A stretch of 41,159 bases of DNA from Chitinophagaceae bacterium. GTDB lineage: Bacteria > Bacteroidota > Bacteroidia > Chitinophagales > Chitinophagaceae. Made by a program: the position numbers and the translations under genes. The notes beneath the pieces are model-generated. The model had not been told where the DNA came from. It did no database searches and saw nothing but the letters and a program-made list of their open reading frames with translations. The stretch spans positions 1-41,159 of the forward strand of contig VFKL01000021.1 in NCBI GenBank assembly GCA_009885535.1, written 5' to 3'. This document shows positions 274 through 40,158 of this stretch, one piece after another (the first letter of the stretch is position 1; each line of letters starts with the position of its first letter).

Positions 274-3200
274 ATGTGCTTTTCAACGCCTAGCAATTTT
301 TTGCGAATATTATTGTTTTTACTTCTGTCCGCTTTGTTTTCCAACATATCAAAAGCAAACGACTCGGATGTCATTAATAATTTACGTCCTTATAAAATAG
401 TTATACTTGGATCTTCTACTGCTTATGGCACTGGGGCAAGTACTTACGATAGTTCTTGGGTTGGAAAATATCAACAATACCTCAAAAACAAAAATTCGCT
501 TAATGAAGTGGTTAATCTGGCGATTCCCGGTGTCACCACCTATAATAATTTAAGACCCGATTATTATACTGCACCAGCGGGAAGACCTTCAACCATTTAT
601 GGAAACAACATTACAGCAGCCATAAATATGAATCCCGATGCCATTATTATTAATATGCCTTCAAATGACGCGGTTAATTATTATACATTAGATGAACAAA
701 AAGAAAATGTTGAAGCAACTATCTATTTAGCCGATTCGGCAAATATTCCAGTATGGATAACAACCAGCCAACCCAGAAACAATCTGAATGAAGAACAAAT
801 GGCTTTATTAACTGGGTTTCGCGACTGGGTATTAACAAGATTTGGAAATAAATCTGTAGATTTTTGGAATAATGTTGCCAATACAAATGGAAGTATTGCT
901 GATTATTATGATTACGATGCGGTTCATGTAAACAATTTTGGACACGAATTATTTTTTTCCAGAATGAAAGCGGCTTGTATACTTGATTCTATAACGGCAA
1001 GACAAATAAATGTACTTGCCGGAAATGATACCACGCTGATATTGCCCAACAATCAATTTGTTTTACGTGGTAATGTATCGAGTGTTAACAATGGTAATAT
1101 CAATTATTCTTGGACAAAAATCGCAGGGCCTGCATTATTTACAATAGAAAATGAAAATCAAATTGATGCAACCGTTTCGAATTTGGTAGAAGGAAATTAT
1201 TCTTTCGAATTAAGCGCTGTTGATTCATTATTAAACACAAAAAAAGACACCATAAATATTATTGTAAAAACAAGGATATTGATTGATTTCGGACCAACCA
1301 CTACAACAGGTGCTGATATAAATGGCAATTATTGGAACAATGTTACCAGCGGTACGGAAGGCGTAAAGTTACAAAATGCAGTTACAACCAATAACCTCAT
1401 TACACCATTGGGATTACAAATTGTTAATCGTATTGATGGCCTTTTTAATGTATTAAGCCAAGGTGTAAATACAGGAAGTACCATTGGTGATGTTGGCGAT
1501 TATCCAAATAGCGTAACTACGGATTATGCATTTGCTTTTTTCAATACCGATATGGGGAAATGGAAAATAACAGGTTTAGATAGCTTAAAAGAATATTCTG
1601 TGAAGTTCTGGGGAACTAGAAACGCAACAGATGTTCGTGTGATAGAAATAAAAAGAGCAGATGAAAGCGTATGGAAATCGTATGAAGCGGCAAATAATAC
1701 AAACTATAACAATGCTGCCATTTTTACTATTCGCGGAAAATCAGAGATGACATTTGATATTAAAATACCAGCAAACAGTTCTTTTGGGCATATTTGTTTA
1801 TTGGATATTACCAGAAGAACGCCTGCAGATATTACCAATTTACCACCAACAGCAATTGCCGGAAACGATGTAAATATCACGCTTCCAATAAATACTGTTC
1901 AATTAGATGGCAACCAATCTTTCGACAACGATCAAACCATTACAACATTTGAGTGGAGAAAGATATCTGGTCCATTGGTTTATACACTTACAAATACCAA
2001 CAATGCCGTTGCAACAGCTTCTGGTTTAGAAGTAGGTGTTTATAAATTTGAGATAAAAGTTACCGATTCGGAAGGCGGTACCGATTTAGACACCGTTGTT
2101 GTAAATGTGGGCGATAGGATTTTAATCGATTTCGGAAACACCATCACAACTTCTCCGGATACCCTTGGAAAATATTGGAATAATGTTACCTCTGGAACAG
2201 AAGGCGTAAAACTAATCAATGCGTTAACTGTTGGAAATGCAACTACAAATATTTCTCTTGAAGTAATCAGTAGAATAGATGGCACATTTAATACTGCTGG
2301 TCCTGGTGTAAACACTGGTAATACAACTGGAGCCGTTAATGAATATCCCAATTCTGTAACCACCGATTATGCATTTGCTCATCCAAGTACAAACAATGGC
2401 GCATGGAAAATATCTGGATTAGACAGTTCCAAAATATATTCCATCAAATTTTGGGGAAACAGATCACCTGTTTCAGATAATAGAGAAATAGAAATCAAAA
2501 CAAGCGAAGATTCAATTTGGAAGTCATATAATTCATCAAACAATGCAAATTATAATAATGCTGTTATCATTGATATCTATGGAAAATCTTCGGTTGTTTT
2601 TAATATTCGAGTAAAAACAGAAAGTGCATTTGGATATATCAGTTTAATTGATATCAATTATTCTAAACCTTGTATTGTAACAAATAGTACAACAGATGTA
2701 GCCGTTTGTAAAAGCCAACTTCCTTACACTTGGAATAATATTAATTATACCACTGCTGGAACATTTACCAAATATCTGATCAATGCAAATGGTTGCGATT
2801 CTATTGCTACTTTAAATTTGGTTGTTAATGATTCTTCTTCGAGTGTTACTAATGCTTCTACTTGCAAAAGCTTTGGTTCTTTTATTTGGAATGGAAATAG
2901 CTACAACGAAACAGGTGTTTATTCAGTAACCTTATCTAATGCAAATGGATGTGATTCTATTGTTACTTTAAATTTGGTTGTTAATGATTCAACAGCTAGT
3001 ACTACTAACGCTTCAATTTGTGTAAATCAAATACCATATGTTTGGAACGGGAATAATTATAATATTTCTGGCATTTATTCATTAACGTTAGCAAATGTAA
3101 ATGGTTGTGATTCCATTGCTTCTTTAGATTTGATTGTTAATGATTTATCTGAAAGCAATACGAATATCACGATTTGCAATAATCAAACGCCATATGTTTG

Positions 3201-6200
3201 GAACGGTAATAGCTATGATATTTCTGGAACTTATTCAGTAACCCTTTCTAATGCAAATGGATGTGATTCTATTACATCTCTAAACATAACAATCAATGAT
3301 ACTTCTTCTAGTATAACAGACGCAACCATTTGCGCTAATCAAACTCCTTATGTTTGGAATGGTAACAACTATAATAATTCTGGTATTTATTCGGTAACCT
3401 TAACTAGTGAAAATGGATGTGATTCTATTGCATCTTTAAATTTGGTTGTTAATGAATTATCTGAAAGTGTTGACAACATCTCAATTTGTACCAATCAAAC
3501 ACCTTATGTTTGGAACGGAAATAATTATAACATTTCTGGCGCTTATTCGGTTACGTTAGTAAATGATAATGGATGCGATTCGGTTGCTTCTTTAAATTTA
3601 ATTATTAATGATTCTTCTTCTAGTGTTTCCAACATTAGCATTTGTACTAATCAAACACCTTATGTTTGGAACGGAAATAATTATACCATTTCTGGAACTT
3701 ATTCAGTTACCCTTTCTAATGCAAATGGATGTGATTCCATTGCATCTCTAAATTTAACAATCAATAACACTTCTTCTAGCATAACTGAGGCAACCATTTG
3801 TGCAAACCAAACACCTTATGTTTGGAACAATAATAATTATAACATTTCTGGCGTTTATTCGGTAACGTTAGTAAATGCTAATGATTGCGACTCTGTTGCT
3901 ACTTTAAATTTGGTTGTTAATGATTTATCAGAAAGTGTTGACAACATCTCGATTTGTACCAATCAAACGCCTTATGTTTGGAACGAAAATAATTATTCAA
4001 CTTCTGGCGTTTATTCGGTTACGTTAGTAAATGCTAATGGATGCGATTCGGTTGCTAATTTAAACTTAACCATTAACAATACAACTTCTAGTATTACCAA
4101 CATTATCATTTGTACAAATCAAGCGCCTTATGTTTGGAACGGTAACAACTATAATAATTCTGGTTCGTATTCAGTTACTAGAACCAATGCTAATGGATGC
4201 GATTCGATTGCCACTTTAAATTTGACCATCAACGCTTTACCAATTGTAAGTGCAGGAACATATAATAACGTAAGTGTTTTAGTTTCAAGCTTACCTCTAA
4301 TTGGTTCTCCTGTTGGCGGAACATTTAGCGGAGCCAGTGTTTTAAATAATACATTCAGACCATCTGTAGCAGGATCAGGAACATTTAATGTAACTTATAC
4401 ATACACAAATCCTGTAACAGGTTGTACAAACACTGCTACAACTACTATTACCGTTACTTGTAATTTTACTGTAGCCGCTACAATAACAGGAAGCACAAAT
4501 GCTTGTTTAAATACAACACCAGGTGATAGTGCGGTTTATAGCATTACCACAACAGATGCTACAACATATACTTGGTCTGTTTCAAATGCTACCACCATGA
4601 GAATTAGTAATATAAAAACCAACAATTCTGTAAAAATTCTTTATACCACTGCATTTACAACAGGTACAGTAACGGTAAATATTAGAGGCTGTAATGGAAC
4701 AACGATAGCTAAAACGCTCAATATAACTAAAAGCGCACCAGCGGCTCCTGTTACAACAGCAGGATCTCGTTGTGGTTCGGGCAGTATTTTATTAAGTGCT
4801 GCTTTGGTTTCTGGTACTACTATAAATTGGTATTCTGCTGCAACCGCAGGAACTTTGCTTGCAACGGCTACCAATAATTTTAATACGCCATCTATCACAG
4901 CAAATACCACATATTATGCTCAAGCAATAACTGGAATTTGTTTGTCTGCAACAAGAAAAGCTGCAATTGCAACAATAAATGTATTGCCAAATGTAGTTAC
5001 CACATTATCAAATGCTACAAAATGTAAAACAGATACCGCATCGATAACAGCAACAGCTACTGCTGGTTTAACAATAGATTGGTATGCAGATTCTACAACA
5101 TCAATAGTTTTAAAATCTGGCACAGCAACAGGAATTAATAAATTAATTACACCACTATTATCTGCTACTACGCTTTATTGGGCAGTACAAAGAAATCTTA
5201 CAACAGGTTGTAGATCTTCTCAAAGAAAAAGGGTAACTGTATTTGTGTATGTGGCTCCTGCAGCTCCGGCAGCAACTGGTGCTAAAAGATGTGGAACAGG
5301 AACGGTTGTTTTAAATGCAACCTTACCGGTTAATCCATCTGGTACAGTAGCATGGTATAATGTAGCAACAGGTGGAACATCTGTTTCTACTACAGCCAAT
5401 TACACCACTAATTCAATATCAACAAATACTACTTATTATGTTGAATCAAAAACAACTTCTACAGGATGTGCTTCATTAATGAGAACGCCTGTATTGGCAA
5501 CCATTAATGCACTTCCTGCTGTACCGGTGGCCATTGCAGGAACAGGTTGTACAGGTTCACGAATTACAATTGGCGGTACTGTTTCTGCAGGACAAACAAT
5601 AGATTGGTATTCTGCCGCAAGTGCAGGTACATTGTTGTTAAGCAATTCTCTTTCTTATACAACGCCGATAATTACAGCGAATACCAATTATTATGCAACA
5701 GCCAGAAACACAACAACCGCTTGTGTTTCAGCAACAAGAACTACAGTTGCAGCAACTGTAAATTCTGTTTTAGCAGCACCAAATTCTTTAACCGGGTTAA
5801 CAAGCATTTGCCCTATAGTTGGCACAATAAACGGAACAACGTATACAGCAAATTCAGTTAGAGGTGCAAATTCATATTTTTGGACAGTACCAAGAGGCGC
5901 TGTAATTGACAGTGGAAGTATTGGATTAAAAATAAAAGTTCGTTACATCACAGCAAGCGCAAATGATACCATTTCTGTTCAGGCTAATAACGGATGTAAA
6001 GGAACCAAAAGATCTGTTAGATTAACAACAACCGGTTGTGCTACAACAGCAATTGCAAAAGTTTCAAATATTGAACTAGAAAATACAGCGTTAAAAATTG
6101 ACTTATTTCCAAATCCATCTTCGAGTGAATTTAATCTAAAGATGAATTCTTCAAAAGATGAAAAAATTAAAGTCCTCACAAAAGATGTACAAGGAAGAAT

Positions 6201-6327
6201 ATTGAAAACAAGTTTATTAAACTCAAATCAAAATAATACGATTGGAAAAGATTTAAAATCTGGAATTTACTTTATGGAAATTCATCAGAATAATAAAATA
6301 AAAGTAATTCGCGCTGTAAAAAGTTAA
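274..6327 (+). CDS. giant T9SS-exported SGNH-hydrolase protein with Ig/PKD-like and 52-residue repeats
   Basis: Secreted or surface protein of 2017 residues. Residues 1-28 are a signal peptide. Residues 40-235 form an SGNH (GDSL-like) hydrolase domain: block I ILGSSTAYG (nucleophile probably S48), NLAIPG, MPSND and the D215-x-x-H218 pair in DAVHVN. It is therefore a probable esterase or deacetylase; its substrate is unknown. Two PKD-like segments (about 245-333 and 527-610) each precede a copy of a duplicated domain of about 190 residues (334-521 and 611-800). Residues 809-1322 are ten 52-residue Cys-containing repeats. From about 1490 to 1830 there are four Ig-like modules with INWYSA/IDWYSA motifs, resembling CHU_C-associated Ig domains. 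The end, from LFPNPS at 1944, is a type A T9SS sorting domain. No accessory gene adjoins it. The hydrolase fold and export route are well supported; ligand binding by the repeats is inference. Confidence 0.9.
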   Translation: MCFSTPSNFLRILLFLLLSALFSNISKANDSDVINNLRPYKIVILGSSTAYGTGASTYDSSWVGKYQQYLKNKNSLNEVVNLAIPGVTTYNNLRPDYYTAPAGRPSTIYGNNITAAINMNPDAIIINMPSNDAVNYYTLDEQKENVEATIYLADSANIPVWITTSQPRNNLNEEQMALLTGFRDWVLTRFGNKSVDFWNNVANTNGSIADYYDYDAVHVNNFGHELFFSRMKAACILDSITARQINVLAGNDTTLILPNNQFVLRGNVSSVNNGNINYSWTKIAGPALFTIENENQIDATVSNLVEGNYSFELSAVDSLLNTKKDTINIIVKTRILIDFGPTTTTGADINGNYWNNVTSGTEGVKLQNAVTTNNLITPLGLQIVNRIDGLFNVLSQGVNTGSTIGDVGDYPNSVTTDYAFAFFNTDMGKWKITGLDSLKEYSVKFWGTRNATDVRVIEIKRADESVWKSYEAANNTNYNNAAIFTIRGKSEMTFDIKIPANSSFGHICLLDITRRTPADITNLPPTAIAGNDVNITLPINTVQLDGNQSFDNDQTITTFEWRKISGPLVYTLTNTNNAVATASGLEVGVYKFEIKVTDSEGGTDLDTVVVNVGDRILIDFGNTITTSPDTLGKYWNNVTSGTEGVKLINALTVGNATTNISLEVISRIDGTFNTAGPGVNTGNTTGAVNEYPNSVTTDYAFAHPSTNNGAWKISGLDSSKIYSIKFWGNRSPVSDNREIEIKTSEDSIWKSYNSSNNANYNNAVIIDIYGKSSVVFNIRVKTESAFGYISLIDINYSKPCIVTNSTTDVAVCKSQLPYTWNNINYTTAGTFTKYLINANGCDSIATLNLVVNDSSSSVTNASTCKSFGSFIWNGNSYNETGVYSVTLSNANGCDSIVTLNLVVNDSTASTTNASICVNQIPYVWNGNNYNISGIYSLTLANVNGCDSIASLDLIVNDLSESNTNITICNNQTPYVWNGNSYDISGTYSVTLSNANGCDSITSLNITINDTSSSITDATICANQTPYVWNGNNYNNSGIYSVTLTSENGCDSIASLNLVVNELSESVDNISICTNQTPYVWNGNNYNISGAYSVTLVNDNGCDSVASLNLIINDSSSSVSNISICTNQTPYVWNGNNYTISGTYSVTLSNANGCDSIASLNLTINNTSSSITEATICANQTPYVWNNNNYNISGVYSVTLVNANDCDSVATLNLVVNDLSESVDNISICTNQTPYVWNENNYSTSGVYSVTLVNANGCDSVANLNLTINNTTSSITNIIICTNQAPYVWNGNNYNNSGSYSVTRTNANGCDSIATLNLTINALPIVSAGTYNNVSVLVSSLPLIGSPVGGTFSGASVLNNTFRPSVAGSGTFNVTYTYTNPVTGCTNTATTTITVTCNFTVAATITGSTNACLNTTPGDSAVYSITTTDATTYTWSVSNATTMRISNIKTNNSVKILYTTAFTTGTVTVNIRGCNGTTIAKTLNITKSAPAAPVTTAGSRCGSGSILLSAALVSGTTINWYSAATAGTLLATATNNFNTPSITANTTYYAQAITGICLSATRKAAIATINVLPNVVTTLSNATKCKTDTASITATATAGLTIDWYADSTTSIVLKSGTATGINKLITPLLSATTLYWAVQRNLTTGCRSSQRKRVTVFVYVAPAAPAATGAKRCGTGTVVLNATLPVNPSGTVAWYNVATGGTSVSTTANYTTNSISTNTTYYVESKTTSTGCASLMRTPVLATINALPAVPVAIAGTGCTGSRITIGGTVSAGQTIDWYSAASAGTLLLSNSLSYTTPIITANTNYYATARNTTTACVSATRTTVAATVNSVLAAPNSLTGLTSICPIVGTINGTTYTANSVRGANSYFWTVPRGAVIDSGSIGLKIKVRYITASANDTISVQANNGCKGTKRSVRLTTTGCATTAIAKVSNIELENTALKIDLFPNPSSSEFNLKMNSSKDEKIKVLTKDVQGRILKTSLLNSNQNNTIGKDLKSGIYFMEIHQNNKIKVIRAVKS
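2698..4236 (+). repeat. ten in-frame 156-bp tandem repeats (52 aa each)
   Basis: Ten units start every 156 bases from 2698 (3010, 3166 and 4102 were checked directly). Each encodes a unit with cores such as NQTPYVWNGNNY and NGCDSIASLNL and two Cys about 29 residues apart, which could form a disulfide in each unit. The last unit lacks the linker. Units 4-6 and 7-9 share a further 468-bp (three-unit) similarity. Confidence 0.95.
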
Positions 6328-23385: not shown

Positions 23386-23715
23386 ATGCCTAGATTAACA
23401 ACACATCAAGAAGTGATTCTTGTACAAGGAACCGAATTTGCCAACAGACAATATGCTGAAAACAAGAGCATGCCAACATCAAACAACTATTTATCTCAGC
23501 ACGAAAAATTGAAAGAAGCTTGCTGGAATGGCCAGTTGAAAGAAATGATGCCGGAATTGTTTTTTATGTTTACAGCAGATACCAATTTATTTTTATGGCA
23601 GATGCGCGAAGGAGAAAAAGTAATTACCATGGAATTATCGGAAGAGCCAACTGAATTGGATTTTCACGCTTCTATTGACCCGTATATTTTTATGGAGATT
23701 CAGGAATACAATTAA
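23386..23715 (+). CDS. conserved-looking small protein of unknown function
   Basis: 109 residues, soluble, rich in Glu and Met, with TPTSNNYLSQ-like and LFFMFTADTNLFLWQM segments and no signal peptide, Cys motif or known domain. Balanced amino-acid use, an ATG start, and a strong terminator 17 bases after the stop (23732-23767) support a real gene. It sits 81 bases after metF on the same strand, but nothing ties it to folate metabolism. No function is assigned. Confidence 0.7.
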   Translation: MPRLTTHQEVILVQGTEFANRQYAENKSMPTSNNYLSQHEKLKEACWNGQLKEMMPELFFMFTADTNLFLWQMREGEKVITMELSEEPTELDFHASIDPYIFMEIQEYN

Positions 23716-23916: not shown

Positions 23917-23957
23917 AAAAAAAACCGCCTCAAAATTTTGAAGCGGTTTTAATTTTT
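23917..23957 (-). terminator. terminator at the end of module A
   Basis: AAAACCGC...GCGGTTTT stem extended by a TCAAAATTTTGA palindrome. On the minus strand it is followed by eight T; on the plus strand by a weaker T run. It is well placed as the 3' end of a minus-strand module A transcript. Confidence 0.8.
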
Positions 23958-24042
23958 TTGAATACCATTTTTGGTATCAGATTGTTGGATGGTTTTAATA
24001 GGGTCTAGGATTTAGGTTTAATTTTCATAGGGTTTGGTTTAG

Positions 24043-24089
24043 CCATCATCGCTTTTTACAGCATAGGCCAGGATATTGGTTTTGGTGTT
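24043..24089 (-). repeat. single copy of the 52-bp-type element in module A
   Basis: Nearly identical to the three tandem units at 24645-24796. On the minus strand it reads TKTNILAYAVKSDDG then a stop, with no ATG in frame. Confidence 0.8.
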
Positions 24090-24090
24090 T

Positions 24091-24216
24091 TTATAATGAT
24101 TTTAAAGAACTTTTCTTAAAAATAGAAGTTGGTTGATATTGGTTTTTTTGGATATTGAAAAGAACGTTTACATTCTTTTGGATTTTGTTTGGATAGATAT
24201 TTAATTCTTTTTTCAT
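24091..24216 (-). CDS. candidate small ORF in module A (41 aa)
   Basis: An ATG at 24216 opens 41 codons: it starts MKKELNIYPNKIQKNVN and ends IFKKSSLKSL. It is Lys/Asn-rich and basic, without Cys. Its start lies at the end of the first arm of a 14-bp inverted repeat and 16 bases after the promoter-like box at 24232-24245, which fits a short-leader gene. No counterpart of the same length exists in module B, so coding is doubtful. Confidence 0.25.
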   Translation of the reverse strand: MKKELNIYPNKIQKNVNVLFNIQKNQYQPTSIFKKSSLKSL

Positions 24217-24228
24217 CAACCAACTTCT
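24124..24228 (-). other. promoter-proximal hairpin of module A
   Basis: Perfect 14-bp inverted repeat: AGAAGTTGGTTGAT (24124-24137) and ATCAACCAACTTCT (24215-24228), 77 bases apart. The counterpart in module B (24879-24889 with 24905-24915) uses different bases at the same place relative to the upstream boxes. Confidence 0.65.
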
Positions 24229-24231
24229 TAC

Positions 24232-24377
24232 ACAAAGATGCATCGATTATGGTTGTTCAACAAGAGCATTATTGCCCTTTTTTTGTAATGATGTAATTAC
24301 ATGTTGAATAGTAAATCAACCTGTAATTTTGTTGGATAAGTACGTTGAAAAAGGAACGTATTTTTACGTTTTTGAAA
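24232..24377 (-). promoter_or_regulatory. upstream control region of module A
   Basis: Four blocks shared with module B: 24232-24245 (minus CGATGCATCTTTGT, one base off TAnnTTTG), 24263-24274 (GC-containing AGAGCA...TG box), 24290-24300 (TGTAATTAC core, part of a palindrome) and 24357-24377 (21 identical bases). Spacing between blocks 1-2-3 is identical in the two modules. Confidence 0.6.
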
Positions 24378-24405
24378 TAACATAAAAGACGAGGTTGCAA
24401 TTACA

Positions 24406-24446
24406 TAAAAAAGAGGCTGCCCTTTTAAGACAGCCTCTAAATTTTT
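24406..24446 (-). terminator. terminator at the end of module B
   Basis: AGAGGCTG (24412-24419) pairs with CAGCCTCT (24431-24438); on the minus strand six T follow directly. On the plus strand AAATTTTTT follows, so it may work both ways. Confidence 0.85.
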
Positions 24447-24553
24447 TAACCGTCACTCTTGGTTTTTCAGGATTGGTTTTTTACTTATAGGGAGTAAACG
24501 TTTCCTGCTTTTAGAGTTTCTTTTTCATTGAAAAAGAAGTGGGTTTTAAAATT

Positions 24554-24703
24554 TTACAGATTTAAAGAAATCTGTTGTTTTTTTACTTCCTTACTTTTAT
24601 TTGGAAAGTAAGTTGGCTTGGATGTTGGATCTACCGGTTTTTTGCCATCATCGCTTTTTACGGCATAGGCTAGGATATTGGTTTTTTGGTTTTTCACCAT
24701 CAT
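24554..24703 (-). CDS. candidate small ORF in module B (49 aa)
   Basis: 49 codons starting MMVKNQKTNILAYAVKSDDG, continuing KKPVDPTSKPTYFPN and ending KKQQISLNL. Basic, soluble, no Cys, no known family. Its ATG overlaps the TGA of the upstream 32-codon ORF as ATGA, a form typical of coupled translation. Without the 52-bp duplications, the upstream start MKTKTNILTYAVKSDDG would read straight into this C-terminal part, giving a product of about 46 residues. Coding status is uncertain. Confidence 0.35.
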   Translation of the reverse strand: MMVKNQKTNILAYAVKSDDGKKPVDPTSKPTYFPNKSKEVKKQQISLNL

Positions 24704-24796
24704 CGCTTTTTACAGCATAGGCTAGGATATTGGTTTTTTGGTTTTTCACCATCATCGCTTTTTACAGCATAGGTGAGGATATTGGTTTTGGTTTTC
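24645..24796 (-). repeat. three tandem 52-bp units in module B
   Basis: Units begin at 24645, 24697 and 24749 (plus coordinates), exactly 52 bases apart, with very few differences. 52 is not a multiple of three, so each unit shifts the reading frame and regenerates an ATGATGG. A fourth copy is in module A. Confidence 0.9.
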
Positions 24797-24798
24797 AT
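24700..24798 (-). CDS. candidate small ORF in module B (32 aa)
   Basis: 32 codons: MKTKTNILTYAVKSDDG, then EKPKNQYPSLCCKKR after the frame is shifted by the second 52-bp unit. It ends in TGA overlapping the ATG of the next ORF. The first 17 residues look like the true start of a small basic peptide; the rest looks like a by-product of the duplication. Confidence 0.3.
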   Translation of the reverse strand: MKTKTNILTYAVKSDDGEKPKNQYPSLCCKKR

Positions 24799-24918
24799 TT
24801 TCGGATAAAAAATTTATCCGTTGATATTGGATTTTAGTTTTTTTAGGGTACTGGATTCGTTTGGTTTTCTAGGATTTTAGAAATTGAATTTTTGTTTTAC
24901 CATCATTCGATTTCTGAT

Positions 24919-25063
24919 ACAAAGATGCATCGCTTTTTTATGTTGTACTAGAGCAATACTGCCCTTTTTTCGGGGTGATGTAATTACCAAAATCAAGAAA
25001 AAAACAGCGTATAATATACAGATCAACGAGGTGTTTTAACTTCGTATTTTTACGTTTTTGAAA
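24919..25063 (-). promoter_or_regulatory. upstream control region of module B
   Basis: Blocks at 24919-24932, 24950-24961, 24977-24987 and 25043-25063 match the module A blocks. Three are identical in sequence (14, 11 and 21 bases) and one has two differences in 12. Starts are 31, 27 and 66 bases apart, against 31, 27 and 67 in module A. Confidence 0.6.
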
Positions 25064-25077
25064 AGAAATAAATGGGG

Positions 25078-25110
25078 TAAAATAAAAATGCTGCACCATA
25101 AGATGCAGCA
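25078..25110 (-). terminator. intrinsic terminator of the CBS-domain synthase gene
   Basis: TGCTGCA (25089-25095) pairs with TGCAGCA (25104-25110); on the minus strand a T-rich tail follows. It lies 29 bases after the stop codon. Confidence 0.85.
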
Positions 25111-25138
25111 CTGTATTGATTCTTATTGAATTTGTTGT

Positions 25139-26494
25139 TTATTTAGATAAACTTTGAATAATGTCGTATTTGGTTACAATCTGATACAAACCACTATCAT
25201 CCTTACTCATCACCGCGCCGTTTTCTTTATTGATAAAATTGCTTAAACGCTCAACGGGCGTATCAAAACTAACTTCAGGGTATGGATTTTCTAAAACATC
25301 TTTTACCAAATGCGTTTTGATTTCACTGTTTACAAGCATCTTATTGAATAAACCACTTTCTGAAATTGCACCAACCATAATTCCGTTTTCAAAAACAGGA
25401 ATATTTTCAATGTCGAATTTCTTCATCAAATGAATGGCTTCCATAACAGTTTGGTCTGTAGTTAAGCTAATAAGCTTTTGACTTTTTCTTCCATTGATGA
25501 TGTCTTTAAATGTATTCACATCTAAAAAACCGCGTTCCATCATCCACTCATCGTTGTATACTTTACCTATATATCTACTTCCGTGATCATGAAAAATACA
25601 TACTACAACATCATCCGGTTTTAATTGATCTTTTAAATTAAATACACCTTGCAAACAACTGCCACAACTGTATCCTATAAATATCCCTTCTTCTTTAGCA
25701 ATTCTTCTCGCCATAACTGCCCCATCTTTATCGGTAACTTTTGTAAACTCATCTATATACTGCATGTCGTAATTCTGAGGAACAAAATCTTCACCAAAAC
25801 CTTCGCTGATATACGGATACACTTCATTGTTATCTAGCTCACCAGTTTCGAAATATTTTTTTAATAAAGAACCATAACTATCAATGGCCCAAACTTTAAT
25901 GTTGGGATTTTTTTCTTTTAGATATTTTCCAGCACCAACAATAGTTCCGCCGGTACCAGTTGCCACAACTAGGTGGGTTATTTTGCCTTCCGATTGTTCC
26001 CAAATTTCAGGTCCAGTTTGTTCGTAATGTGCTTGACGATTGGCTAAATTATCATATTGGTTTACATACCAAGAGTTTGGAATTTCGGTAGCCAATCTTT
26101 TCGAAACAGAATAGTAAGAACGCGGATCTTCGGGTTCAACATTGGTAGGACAAATTATCACTTCGGCACCAACTGCTTTTAAGATATCCGCTTTTTCTTT
26201 AGATTGTTTATCGGTTGTAGTGAAAATACATTTGTATCCTTTAACGCAGGCTGCTAGCGCCAATCCCATTCCTGTATTACCACTCGTACCTTCAATAATG
26301 GTACCGCCTGGTTTGATTTTTCCTTCGGCTTCAGCCACTTCAAGCATTTTTAAAGCCATTCTATCTTTAATAGAATTACCAGGATTAAAATACTCCACTT
26401 TTGCTAAAACGGTACAAGGTAAATCCTTGGTTACTTTGTTTAATTTAATTAACGGTGTATTCCCGATAGTTTCTAAAATGTTATTTAGCCACAT
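25139..26494 (-). CDS. cystathionine beta-synthase / cysteine synthase with CBS-domain pair
   Basis: PLP enzyme of 451 residues. The N-terminal two thirds is a fold-type II synthase: NTPLIKLNKV, PLP lysine K43 in PGNSIKDRMALKM, the phosphate or substrate loop EGTSGNTGMGLA and GTGGTIVGAGKYL. The last 110 residues form a pair of CBS domains, as in eukaryotic and many bacterial cystathionine beta-synthases. There is no N-terminal heme-binding extension. It joins serine (or O-acetylserine) with homocysteine or sulfide; the CBS pair favours cystathionine beta-synthase, but I cannot decide from sequence alone. The upstream -7 box TATCTTTG is at 26517-26524. Confidence 0.92.
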   Translation of the reverse strand: MWLNNILETIGNTPLIKLNKVTKDLPCTVLAKVEYFNPGNSIKDRMALKMLEVAEAEGKIKPGGTIIEGTSGNTGMGLALAACVKGYKCIFTTTDKQSKEKADILKAVGAEVIICPTNVEPEDPRSYYSVSKRLATEIPNSWYVNQYDNLANRQAHYEQTGPEIWEQSEGKITHLVVATGTGGTIVGAGKYLKEKNPNIKVWAIDSYGSLLKKYFETGELDNNEVYPYISEGFGEDFVPQNYDMQYIDEFTKVTDKDGAVMARRIAKEEGIFIGYSCGSCLQGVFNLKDQLKPDDVVVCIFHDHGSRYIGKVYNDEWMMERGFLDVNTFKDIINGRKSQKLISLTTDQTVMEAIHLMKKFDIENIPVFENGIMVGAISESGLFNKMLVNSEIKTHLVKDVLENPYPEVSFDTPVERLSNFINKENGAVMSKDDSGLYQIVTKYDIIQSLSK

Positions 26495-28087: not shown

Positions 28088-28194
28088 GTAAGAAAGAGGT
28101 TCAATAGGTTCAATGCGTTCAATAGGTTCAATAGGTTGGAAGCATTTTCCGAATGAGCCATTTCGTGAAACAAAAAAGTTTAAATCGCTGCGCT

Positions 28195-32191: not shown

Positions 32192-32448
32192 TGCCCCCAT
32201 CCCCAGCCCTTCCCCCGAAAGGTGAAGGGAGCGGAACATCGTAATAATTTAGAAGTTCAATTGTATTAAAGAAGCCAAAAACGCTGAACGCTTCCAACCT
32301 TTTGAACGCATTGAACCTCTGAAACCATTCTCTACGAGAATTATTTTAAACACGAAGGCACGACACAAAGGCACTAAGTTTTTTTATGAAACAAAGAAGC
32401 TAATAATTGGAAAATGATTCCAACCTTTTGAACCCATTGAACCCATTG

Positions 32449-32556
32449 AACCTCCCAAACCTCATAAACCTCTCAAACCTCTCAAACCTCTCAAACCTCA
32501 CAAACCTCACAAACCTCCAAAACCTCACAAACCTCACAAACCTCCAAAACCTCATA
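32449..32556 (+). repeat. twelve 9-bp units (AACCTCnnA)
   Basis: Twelve units in exact 9-base register, e.g. AACCTCACA, AACCTCTCA, AACCTCCAA. It ends 20 bases before the -7 box of the following gene. A shorter array of the same unit is at 40114-40158. Confidence 0.92.
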
Positions 32557-32576
32557 AACTTCTCTCTACTTTAATC

Positions 32577-37816: not shown

Positions 37817-39484
37817 TTACCCATTCATCGACGTCAGGAACTCAGCATTGTCTTTTGTTCCTTTCATGTTTTTCAACAACATATTGATGGCTTCTTCAGG
37901 ATTCATATCAGCCAAATGTTTGCGCAAAATCCACATGCGTTTGAATGTGTCTTTATCAAGTAATAAATCATCACGTCTTGTAGAAGAAGAAACAATATCA
38001 ATAGCAGGGAATATTCTTCTGTTCGATAATTTTCTTTCTAGTTGAAGTTCCATGTTGCCAGTACCTTTAAACTCTTCAAAAATCACTTCATCCATTTTAC
38101 TTCCGGTATCAACTAAAGCAGTTGCGATAATGGTAAGCGATCCACCATTTTCAATTTTTCTGGCAGCACCAAAGAATTGTTTTGGTTTTTGCATGGCATT
38201 GGCTTCTACCCCACCCGATAAAACCTTTCCGCTAGAAGGTGCTACCGTATTGTGTGCACGCGCCAAACGAGTAATTGAATCTAAAAGAATAACAACATCA
38301 TGTCCGCATTCTACCAAACGTTTTGCTTTTTGTAAAGCAATGGTTGAAACTTTAACGTGTTTTTCTGCTGGCTCATCAAAAGTAGAAGCGATTACTTCTG
38401 CTTTTACGCTTCTTTCCATATCGGTAACCTCCTCAGGTCTTTCATCTACAAGCACAATCATCAAATAACATTCTGGATGATTTTCAGCAATTGCGTTTGC
38501 CAATTCTTTCAGCAACATGGTTTTACCTGTTTTAGGTTGCGCAACAATCAATCCACGCTGCCCTTTACCGATTGGCGTAAACAGGTCCATAATTCTGGTA
38601 CTATAATTATCCGAACTGGTCGTAAGGTTTAATTTTTCGAAAGGGAATAACGGAGTAAGGTAATCGAAGGGAACGCGATCGCGAACTTCTTCCGGACTTT
38701 TGCCGTTTATCGTTTCTACTTTTAATAGTGCGAAATATTTTTCACCTTCTTTTGGTGGACGAACAGATCCATAAACGGTATCACCTGTTTTTAAACCAAA
38801 AAGTTTTATTTGAGAAGGTGAAACATAAATATCATCCGGACTAGACAAATAATTATAATCGCTGCTCCTTAAAAATCCGTAACCATCAGGCATCATTTCA
38901 AGTACGCCTTCACCCAATACAATACCATCGAATTCGATATTAAAAACCGGTGCTGTATATTTTTGTTGTTGATATTTTTGTTGAGGGTACTTTGGATTTT
39001 GTTGTTCGATATTTATTTCAGGTTGTTGAATATCTTCTTCCTGAAGCATTTGAGCAATTGCTGCTGGAACAGTAGTTTGTTCGCTAGTGATGGGTTGTAG
39101 ATCAGCTTCAGCATCATTAGTAATTACCGGTTCAGCTTTTGGTTTTTTAGCAATTACTTTTTTGGGTTTAGCAGTTGCAGCTGGAACAGCAATTGGTTGT
39201 TCCACTTTGGTTTCTACTTGATTAGCTACTGGTTCTTCAGTAAATAAAGTGGAAGGCTCTGGTGTTGTTCCTTTTTTTACGGGTTCTTTTACAATTCTTT
39301 TTCTTTTAGGCTTATCTGCTCCGTCGGCATCATTTTTTACTTCTTGCGAGCCAGTTTGTTTTTCCATAATTGCAGCAATTAAATCTGTTCTTGATAAATC
39401 TTTTGAGTTTGAGATGTTGAATTGATCAGCAATATCGGTCAATTCTAAAACGAGCATGTCGTTCAGCTGTGATAAATTATACAT
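37817..39484 (-). CDS. rho: transcription termination factor Rho
   Basis: 555 residues; hexameric RNA-dependent ATPase. The N terminus has a Rho_N helix bundle ([18 protein letters not shown], ..[10 protein letters not shown]). An insert of about 130 residues follows that is rich in Lys, Pro, Glu and Gln ([31 protein letters not shown]). The primary RNA-binding domain starts with [20 protein letters not shown]. The ATPase core has PKTGKT with K321, [14 protein letters not shown], and [12 protein letters not shown]. The insert is a known trait of Bacteroidota and Actinobacteria Rho and may be disordered or phase-separating; that is inference. No neighbouring gene is linked. Confidence 0.97.
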
Positions 39485-39755
39485 AATAAGTTGAAAATGC
39501 GTTGTTCAAATGTTATACGCTTAAAAAAAGATGTGGTTGAAAATTTGTTGATGAAGGAAAAGGTTTTCAATGAAGCGATTAGATTGGGATTTATCTTATC
39601 AACCATTTCCAACACAATATTAAGTAGATTTTGTTTAATAAAAGAACTTTTTATTGATTTTTTATTAAATGCGGCATAAAAAAATTAGCTCAGCTTTGAA
39701 ATGATCGATTAAAAAAGAAAATTGGATATAAATGAAAGATGCGGGATGCTGTATA

Positions 39756-40029
39756 GCATTTAGAAAAAATTTGAAATATTGATTTCTAAATGATAATTTT
39801 TGGAAAACAATCAAGCTTCTAACAATCATCGGTTAGGAAACCGGAAATATTCAAACCTCTATATAAACACCGGCTTGGAAGCCGGCGCTAGGAAGCATTT
39901 AGAAAAAATTTGAAATATTGATTTCTAAATGATAATTTTTGGAAAACAATCAAGCTTCTATCAATCAACGGTTAGGAAACCGGAAGTATTCAAACCTCTT
40001 TATAAACACCGGCTTGGAAGCCGGCGCTA
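39756..40029. repeat. tandem duplication of a 135-bp hairpin-bearing unit
   Basis: Units 39756-39890 and 39895-40029 have equal length, differ at only about five bases and are separated by GGAA. Each has an inverted CATTTAGAAA/TTTCTAAATG pair at its left end, GGTTAGGAAACC in the middle, and CCGGCTTGGAAGCCGG near its right end. Confidence 0.92.
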
Positions 40030-40113: not shown

Positions 40114-40158
40114 AACCTCTTTAACCTCACAAACCTCTTAAACGTCTCAAACCTCTTC
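40114..40158 (+). repeat. five 9-bp units (AACCTCnnn)
   Basis: AACCTCTTT, AACCTCACA, AACCTCTTA, AACGTCTCA, AACCTCTTC in register, ending two bases before the katG stop. Same unit as the array at 32449-32556. Confidence 0.8.

Follow-up and report, generated by a model that had tools for sequence, protein, structure and literature searches.

A probable multi-copy non-coding RNA family with a conserved promoter and putative operator in the Chitinophagaceae

In the BarA-UvrY system, csrB and csrC stand out by a wide margin as the strongest targets of UvrY and are bound via an inverted repeat, and their RNAs sequester CsrA, according to the accessible part of the report (PMC4682653). The accessible part of another report describes the Rsm RNAs as having several unpaired GGA motifs and as sequestering proteins of the RsmA type (PMC2375449). 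Here we describe positions 23917..25110 of a 41,159-nucleotide (nt) window, the whole stretch of DNA analysed, which was placed in the Ferruginibacter group of the Chitinophagaceae (hereafter "the genus"). This stretch appears to hold two tandem genes of a multi-copy RNA family, each with a predicted housekeeping-type promoter and intrinsic terminator. Judged from sequence, we consider it close to certain that the family is transcribed and non-coding. We computed the family, its promoter, helices, distribution and gene neighbours directly.

The closest working model is BarA-UvrY/CsrB, and our best reading is that the RNA family works like CsrB/RsmY without being a member. Like CsrB/CsrC and RsmX/Y/Z, it is multi-copy within a genome, consists of short motifs that recur, and has its own promoter with an upstream palindrome. 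As with CsrB/RsmY, a LuxR/NarL-type regulator lies nearby in several genera, and the main target of the operator appears to be the RNA. Unlike CsrB, where the accessible part of the report places the UvrY inverted repeat far upstream and a second crosslink near -35 (PMC4682653), the repeat here overlaps the -33 site. Moreover, the GGA motif is not enriched and no sequence relation to CsrB/RsmY was found in Rfam.

A preliminary description of this DNA had reported four upstream blocks shared by the two modules, and its blocks, identities and distances were all exact on recomputation. The 14-base block ACAAAGATGCATCG is identical at 24232 and 24919, the 11-base block GATGTAATTAC at 24290 and 24977, and the 21-base block CGTATTTTTACGTTTTTGAAA at 24357 and 25043, while the 12-base block (AGAGCATTATTG/AGAGCAATACTG, at 24263/24950) has two differences. 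The distances from block to block are 31, 27 and 67 in the downstream module (copy 1) and 31, 27 and 66 in the upstream module (copy 2). The longest word common to both promoter stretches is 21 bases, where 300 dinucleotide shuffles gave no more than 13; of their nine-mers, 26 fall on one diagonal pair, where 100 shuffles gave no more than 7. Since both counts exceed those of the shuffles, the likeness of the blocks is not due to chance.

Read on the minus strand, on which all features of the two modules are given below, the blocks are parts of a predicted promoter. The 14-base block contains the predicted -7 element CATCTTTG (24233..24240 in copy 1, 24920..24927 in copy 2). In both modules, 20 bases separate it from the -33 site, which reads TTG in copy 1 (24261-24263) and TAG in copy 2. 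The 12-base block belongs to an inverted repeat of 16 bases that reads AGAGCA-N4-TGCCCT on the plus strand; on the minus strand, AGRGCA-N4-TGCYCT covers both copies. We regard this repeat, which is kept in other genera, as a putative operator (AGGGCAATAATGCTCT, 24263..24278, in copy 1; AGGGCAGTATTGCTCT, 24950..24965, in copy 2), the end of which meets the -33 position, so that it would overlap the -33 site of each promoter. The 11-base block contains GTAATTAC (24290..24300 and 24977..24987), corresponding to GTAA[AT]T in other genera, and the 21-base block contains the palindrome CGTAAAAATACG (24357..24377 and 25043..25063), corresponding there to a TACG/CGTA box. Allowing at most one mismatch, the inverted repeat AGRGCANNNNTGCYCT occurs in the 2.57-Mb assembly solely at these two sites, both without mismatch, but this count alone is not evidence because the reversed pattern used as a control also gave 2 matches per strand. 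The spaced pattern that includes the -7 element returned the same two sites in the assembly and none in the control.

The predicted RNA of copy 1 spans 23917..24229 (about 313 nt) and that of copy 2 spans 24407..24916 (about 510 nt, counted from the predicted start through the T-run). Both end in predicted intrinsic terminators, at 23917..23952 and 24407..24440. The strand had been taken from the T-runs of these terminators, an assignment that held: both fold well on the minus strand (-17.0 and -18.3 kcal/mol, respectively) and their T-runs lie there. The near-identical segment of 45 to 50 bp reported in each module proved to be a hairpin unit. The earlier account had missed its repetition: module 1 has one unit, and module 2 has three tandem copies with a 52-bp period (24636-24789). 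We searched with two models, R1 for the hairpin unit and R2 for the 5' domain, the E-values of both being rough. R1 matched the unit of copy 1 at 24026..24082 and units 1, 2 and 3 of copy 2 at 24732..24788, 24680..24736 and 24628..24684. R2 matched copy 1 at 24124-24230 (E 3.7e-8).

The promoter was then compared across the family in 54 copies from other genera that had been found by R2 alone, their upstream sequence being unused. The inverted repeat, with at most three mismatches, was present in 47 of these 54 copies (3.1 in shuffled sequence) and the -7 element in 53 (0.8 shuffled). GTAA[AT]T was found in 35 (2.7 shuffled) and the TACG/CGTA box in 49 (16.1 shuffled). In a separate collection of 103 distinct copies, the inverted repeat was present with at most two mismatches in 101. 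These copies were chosen by their -7 element, the conservation of which is therefore uninformative there; the inverted repeat was not used for selection, and some of the 103 loci may lie outside the genus.

We also searched the 294 genomes of the family sample with the pattern GAGCA-N4-TGCTCTTG-N16..24-TANNTTTG. Nineteen genomes matched, at 20 sites in all, and every one of them belongs to the 97 R2-positive genomes described below; the reversed pattern gave no match. The spacer was exactly 20 in all 20 matches, though 16 to 24 was allowed. Both P1 strands of the 5' domain follow in 15 matches (tested by pattern), and similar repeats with a changed 5' end follow in the other 5 (L280, L281, L282, L284 and L290; judged by eye). 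Because all 20 matches precede the RNA or similar repeats, the promoter appears dedicated to the RNA family. This exact pattern tests specificity and not distribution, as it misses our own genome and most R2-positive genomes.

A blastn search with the region (E 0.001) gave a match in 34 of 59 related genomes, a figure that overstates the spread because the matches in the three genomes outside the genus (G042, G045 and G046) are short and lie on the terminator. In the relatives' loci, the same promoter leads into 400 to 600 nt of repeats that lack long open frames. Most hits in a scan of named genomes were records labelled Ferruginibacter or unclassified Chitinophagaceae or Bacteroidetes, and Ginsengibacter hankyongi and Niastella caeni also held related copies. 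R1 found the hairpin unit in 66 of 93 genus genomes. R2 found the 5' domain in 97 of 294 genomes and 35 of 101 genera of the family sample, with up to 10 matches in one genome. In the order sample it matched 32 of 298 genomes, one of them (G037) at a simple repeat, and in the phylum sample 5 of 296, all within the family. The G037 match (L244, E 0.0046), the sole R2 match outside the family, was dropped from the counts, as were, before counting, three antisense shadows of true R2 matches (L238 twice, L240). A Vibrio locus (L139) was a chance match of the search pattern and has no 5' domain. A phage origin was also considered and set aside, the exact hairpin pattern occurring in none of the viral contigs. 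A record titled Streptomyces griseus (L120, CALPIT020000202.1) has a Ferruginibacter-type copy of the RNA and is probably a mislabelled metagenome bin.

The genus repeat unit consists of the linker AAACCAATATCC followed by a hairpin with the nearly fixed core TATGC-N2-TWAAAA-GCGA-N2-AT. In an alignment of 52 hand-chosen units out of 77 distinct ones (A1), the stems covary, with 37 two-sided changed cells compared to 9.9 in shuffled alignments and 95.2% of cells paired; pairing fell to 9-39% in slid controls. The 5' end forms a long helix, P1, in which AGAAGTTGATTGAT pairs with ATCARTCAACTTCT over 14-15 bp around roughly 75-90 nt. In copy 1 this domain spans 24124..24228, and the P1 arms (24215-24228 and 24124-24137) are paired at 14 of 14 positions around CCAATATC linkers. 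A second element, P2, is a local hairpin that competes with the end of P1 for TTGATA and is paired in 98.3% of cases in the genus set and 85% in other genera; a conformational switch is possible. Across 52 matches from other genera, P1 and P2 together showed 28 two-sided changes compared to 10.1 shuffled, 12 of them in the two outermost P1 pairs and 16 in P2. An independent fold of the other-genera alignment recovered a P1 of 14 pairs, with the inner pair 16-200 as UA in 36 of 52 sequences and CG in 10. Pair 12-204 is U-G in 31 of 52, which supports the minus strand because this pair would be A-C on the opposite one. Alignments A2 and A4 carry built-in preferences: A2 (48 of 73 non-redundant 5' domains, 88 distinct) came from a pattern fixing the 5' strand of P1, where invariance is by construction, and A4 (47 of 60 regions, leaving out 11 genus regions, L244, and L199 as a near copy of L198) was found with R2 and leans towards its structure. 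In some other genera (L105, L168, L172 and L180), the 3' end of the RNA seems to lie near a hairpin, CCTCCTGC...GCAGGAGG, with a paired AGGAGG inside and no T-run.

The preliminary description had offered regulated small RNAs under a selected control region as one interpretation and a search of related genomes for the spaced boxes as a check. In that search, the boxes turned up with almost the same spacing both within the genus and elsewhere in the family, a result that supports this interpretation together with the covarying stems.

The body of the RNA between P1 and the terminator is A- and C-rich and G-poor, with C at 0.21 and G at 0.14 in the genus and 0.24 and 0.15 in other genera. A terminator finder placed the ends of 84 of 103 genus-set copies and 22 of 55 copies of other genera, and motifs were counted in these bodies after trimming 100 bases from the start and 40 from the end. 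The motif CCAATATCC occurs 111 times in the 84 genus bodies (0.4 shuffled) and GAAA(A)..CC 268 times (56.1 shuffled), and neither occurs on the opposite strand. TCC-N(3-5)-TCC is likewise enriched there (82 compared to 22.0 shuffled). In the 22 bodies of other genera only such looser patterns are enriched: TCC-N(3-5)-TCC 34 times compared to 10.8, and GAAA..CC 31 times compared to 7.9. GGA, the CsrA signal, is not enriched in either set (163 in 84 bodies compared to 221 shuffled; 28 in 22 compared to 32.5). CsrA itself (PF02599) was found in none of 20 genomes, a search that covered our own genome, 12 more of the genus and 7 of other families of the order and had other Chitinophagaceae genera outside it; the positive control detected PF02599 in 3 of 14 named genomes, including E. 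coli and B. subtilis. CsrA was therefore rejected as the partner within the 20 genomes searched. The lack of CsrA there and the lack of repeated GGA are the reasons for not counting the RNA as a CsrB/RsmY member.

We examined the genes upstream of 68 copies, drawn from 69 R2 copies (14 of the genus) and the window. In 19 of the 68, a divergent LuxR-type response regulator lies directly upstream; these regulators are of two subtypes and occur in 9 genera (tally), and Pfam assigned Response_reg and GerE to one of each subtype. In 26 of the 68, as in the window, the upstream gene is a same-strand cystathionine beta-synthase (12 genera by tally); the counts include tandem copies beside one gene, so that these 26 correspond to about 22 genes. 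A gene of this type also adjoins the RNA in 52 of 86 genus-set copies with an upstream gene. Our own genome encodes an orthologue of the regulator elsewhere (68% identity); of 59 genus genomes, 49 encode an orthologue with at least 66% identity and another two matched at no more than 47%. GTAA[AT]TAC lies upstream of the regulator orthologue in 19 of 27 genus loci, compared to 0.9 shuffled (3 of 30 loci gave no start), a comparison that is not a probability because the upstream regions are orthologous. Many regulator promoters of the Ferruginibacter group (L249-L278) carry a long inverted repeat, GTAAAATCCCTAT...ATAGGGTAATTAC, and share GTAATTAC with the RNA promoters; autoregulation is possible.

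Given its make-up of repeated short motifs, the RNA may stand at the centre of a control circuit. Since the regulator adjoins the RNA in other genera and the boxes are shared, we infer that a LuxR-type response regulator most likely switches transcription via the GTAAnTAC and/or GAGCA-N4-TGCTC boxes. The RNA would, most likely, titrate an RNA-binding protein whose recognition sites are the repeated single-stranded UCC/CCAAUAUCC and GAAAAACC motifs; in Ferruginibacter, this protein would also recognise the fixed-core hairpins. For an RNA that titrates under a dedicated regulator, we judge the chances to be even. The full circuit, in which LuxR-type response regulators control a regulon consisting solely of several repeat-RNA copies, which in turn titrate a new RNA-binding protein reading UCC/CCAAUAUCC and GAAAAACC, is a more tentative proposal, and we would put it at about one chance in three.

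Several observations weigh against the titration circuit. In the genus set, none of the 86 copies that have an upstream gene adjoins the regulator, and those loci hold no regulator-like frame; the link between RNA and regulator there rests on the orthologue encoded elsewhere. The boxes shared upstream of the regulator lie in orthologous sequences and are therefore not independent. Another protein could be the reader of the operator. The fixed-core hairpin was found in the genus alone, R1 matching 8 of 298 genomes in the order sample, all of the same genus, and CCAATATCC is rare in the 22 bodies of other genera (2 occurrences). R2 did not find the 5' domain in copy 2 of the window, where we read a 5' hairpin at 24879..24915 as a shorter, diverged equivalent of P1. 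Finally, part of P1 is nearly invariant, which calls for something beyond titration.

In the strongest competitor of titration, the RNAs are trans-acting and base-pair, through their conserved P1 strands or repeated linkers, with many mRNAs, the mode of action proposed for the FopS small RNAs of Bacteroides. The near-invariant AAGTTGATTG stretch and the repeated single-stranded motifs could serve as seeds, and the family is multi-copy, as are the FopS paralogs, which share a conserved seed according to the accessible part of the report (PMC11697453). FopS and GibS of Bacteroides, bound by RbpB, resemble our family as a multi-copy Bacteroidota small RNA family with paralogs and own promoters. 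The accessible part of the same report describes FopS as a single-stranded 5' stretch plus a terminator (PMC11697453), whereas the 5' end here lies in a 14-15-bp helix. Unlike FopS/GibS, our RNAs are several hundred bases long, carry hairpin arrays and have no Rfam match. On the basis of this difference in architecture, as far as that part of the source describes it (PMC11697453), RbpB/FopS was rejected as a relative. We give base pairing roughly one chance in five.

A structural role, in which the RNA builds an assembly of RNA or of RNA and protein with the hairpin repeats as docking sites, is less probable still, and we regard it as doubtful. The length of the RNA, the tandem hairpins of near-fixed core in variable number and the long-range 5' helix would suit such a role, and like OLE, GOLLD and ROOL, this is a long non-coding RNA of conserved structure. 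It differs from these in its long A/C-rich linkers, its conserved operator and its lack of an Rfam match, the comparison otherwise drawing on general background. The linkers, the absence of an Rfam match to large ornate RNAs and the absence of the hairpins outside the genus in the 298 order genomes all argue against an assembly. The type III toxin-antitoxin RNA ToxI likewise repeats a small structured unit in tandem within a single transcript; its repeat and architecture we take to be different from those of our family. Unlike ToxI, the RNA has cystathionine beta-synthase, response-regulator and Peripla_BP_2 genes as recurrent neighbours. By pattern, with no toxin library run, we found no recurrent toxin among 69 downstream genes.

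Rho prefers YC. The RNA might be a Rho-binding decoy, C-rich and G-poor with UC steps about 7 bases apart, that occupies Rho or ends its own transcription. The excess of C over G and the enrichment of TCC-N(3-5)-TCC in the genus and in other genera fit this idea, and Rho is encoded in the window (37817-39484, minus strand). We nevertheless hold it to be improbable, as strong intrinsic terminators close both window copies, Rho would not need the conserved AATA or GAAAAACC, and a conserved operator would be unexpected. Least probable are the small-protein genes that the preliminary description had raised as an alternative, with the open frames MKTKTNILTYAVKSDDG... made as peptides: a start codon does precede each module 2 unit, but the unit period of 52, no multiple of three, shifts the frame, the longest open frames match those of shuffled sequence (median 42 compared to 38 amino acids in the genus, 41 compared to 40 in other genera), and variation follows base pairs.

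The RNA family is apparently undescribed. Among the matches listed, literature titles and abstract openings held no description of it, and a prior mention is possible. Rfam 15 at its curated cut-offs gave no match in the window or in 7 genus loci, and in 14 loci of other genera it gave one tRNA only and none on the RNAs. A permissive Rfam search of the region gave 32 matches with E-values of up to 5, many of them on the terminators and none approaching its cut-off, which we attribute to chance; the top row was SSRC34_2 (E 0.031, 28.6 bits against a cut-off of 48). If titration is correct, the design that leads from a two-component system to a sponge RNA would seem to have arisen again without CsrA, and the RNA would be a bait for a new RNA-binding regulator, the adjacent transcription regulators being named as candidates. 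Should the full circuit hold, CsrA-less bacteria would possess an independent equivalent of Gac/Rsm and BarA-UvrY/Csr, new to the Bacteroidota. Whatever the function, R1 and R2 allow the annotation of a widespread, unrecognised gene family in a large environmental bacterial family.

In the window, the gene next to copy 2 is the recurrent upstream neighbour of the RNA, a cystathionine beta-synthase type gene with PALP and CBS domains (25139..26494, minus strand), which is followed by a terminator of its own (25084-25114). The next gene downstream of the RNA pair is on the opposite strand. Across the family, the 69 downstream genes comprised 17 Peripla_BP_2-like genes (one confirmed by Pfam), 2 response regulators by pattern and 50 unclassified genes. 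A conserved protein of about 120 to 165 amino acids is encoded downstream of several RNA copies (L190, L203, L210, L215, L223 and L229), mostly beside the second regulator subtype; the L215 copy had no Pfam match.

Other features of the window were recorded in passing. A 109-amino-acid protein without a Pfam match is encoded at 23386-23715 on the plus strand, beside a methylenetetrahydrofolate reductase gene. At 274-6327, also on the plus strand, lies the gene for a 2017-amino-acid protein that combines GDSL lipase, Ig_7 and PKD domains with a secretion sorting tail, a gene within which 156-bp tandem repeats occur at 2782-4225. Two direct 139-bp copies with a 97% match are found at 39755-40029, upstream of the Rho gene. 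Related 9-base tandem repeats at 28097-28137, 32428-32564 and 40114-40157 (AGGTTCAAT, AACCTCACA and AACCTCTTA) possibly form one repeat class.

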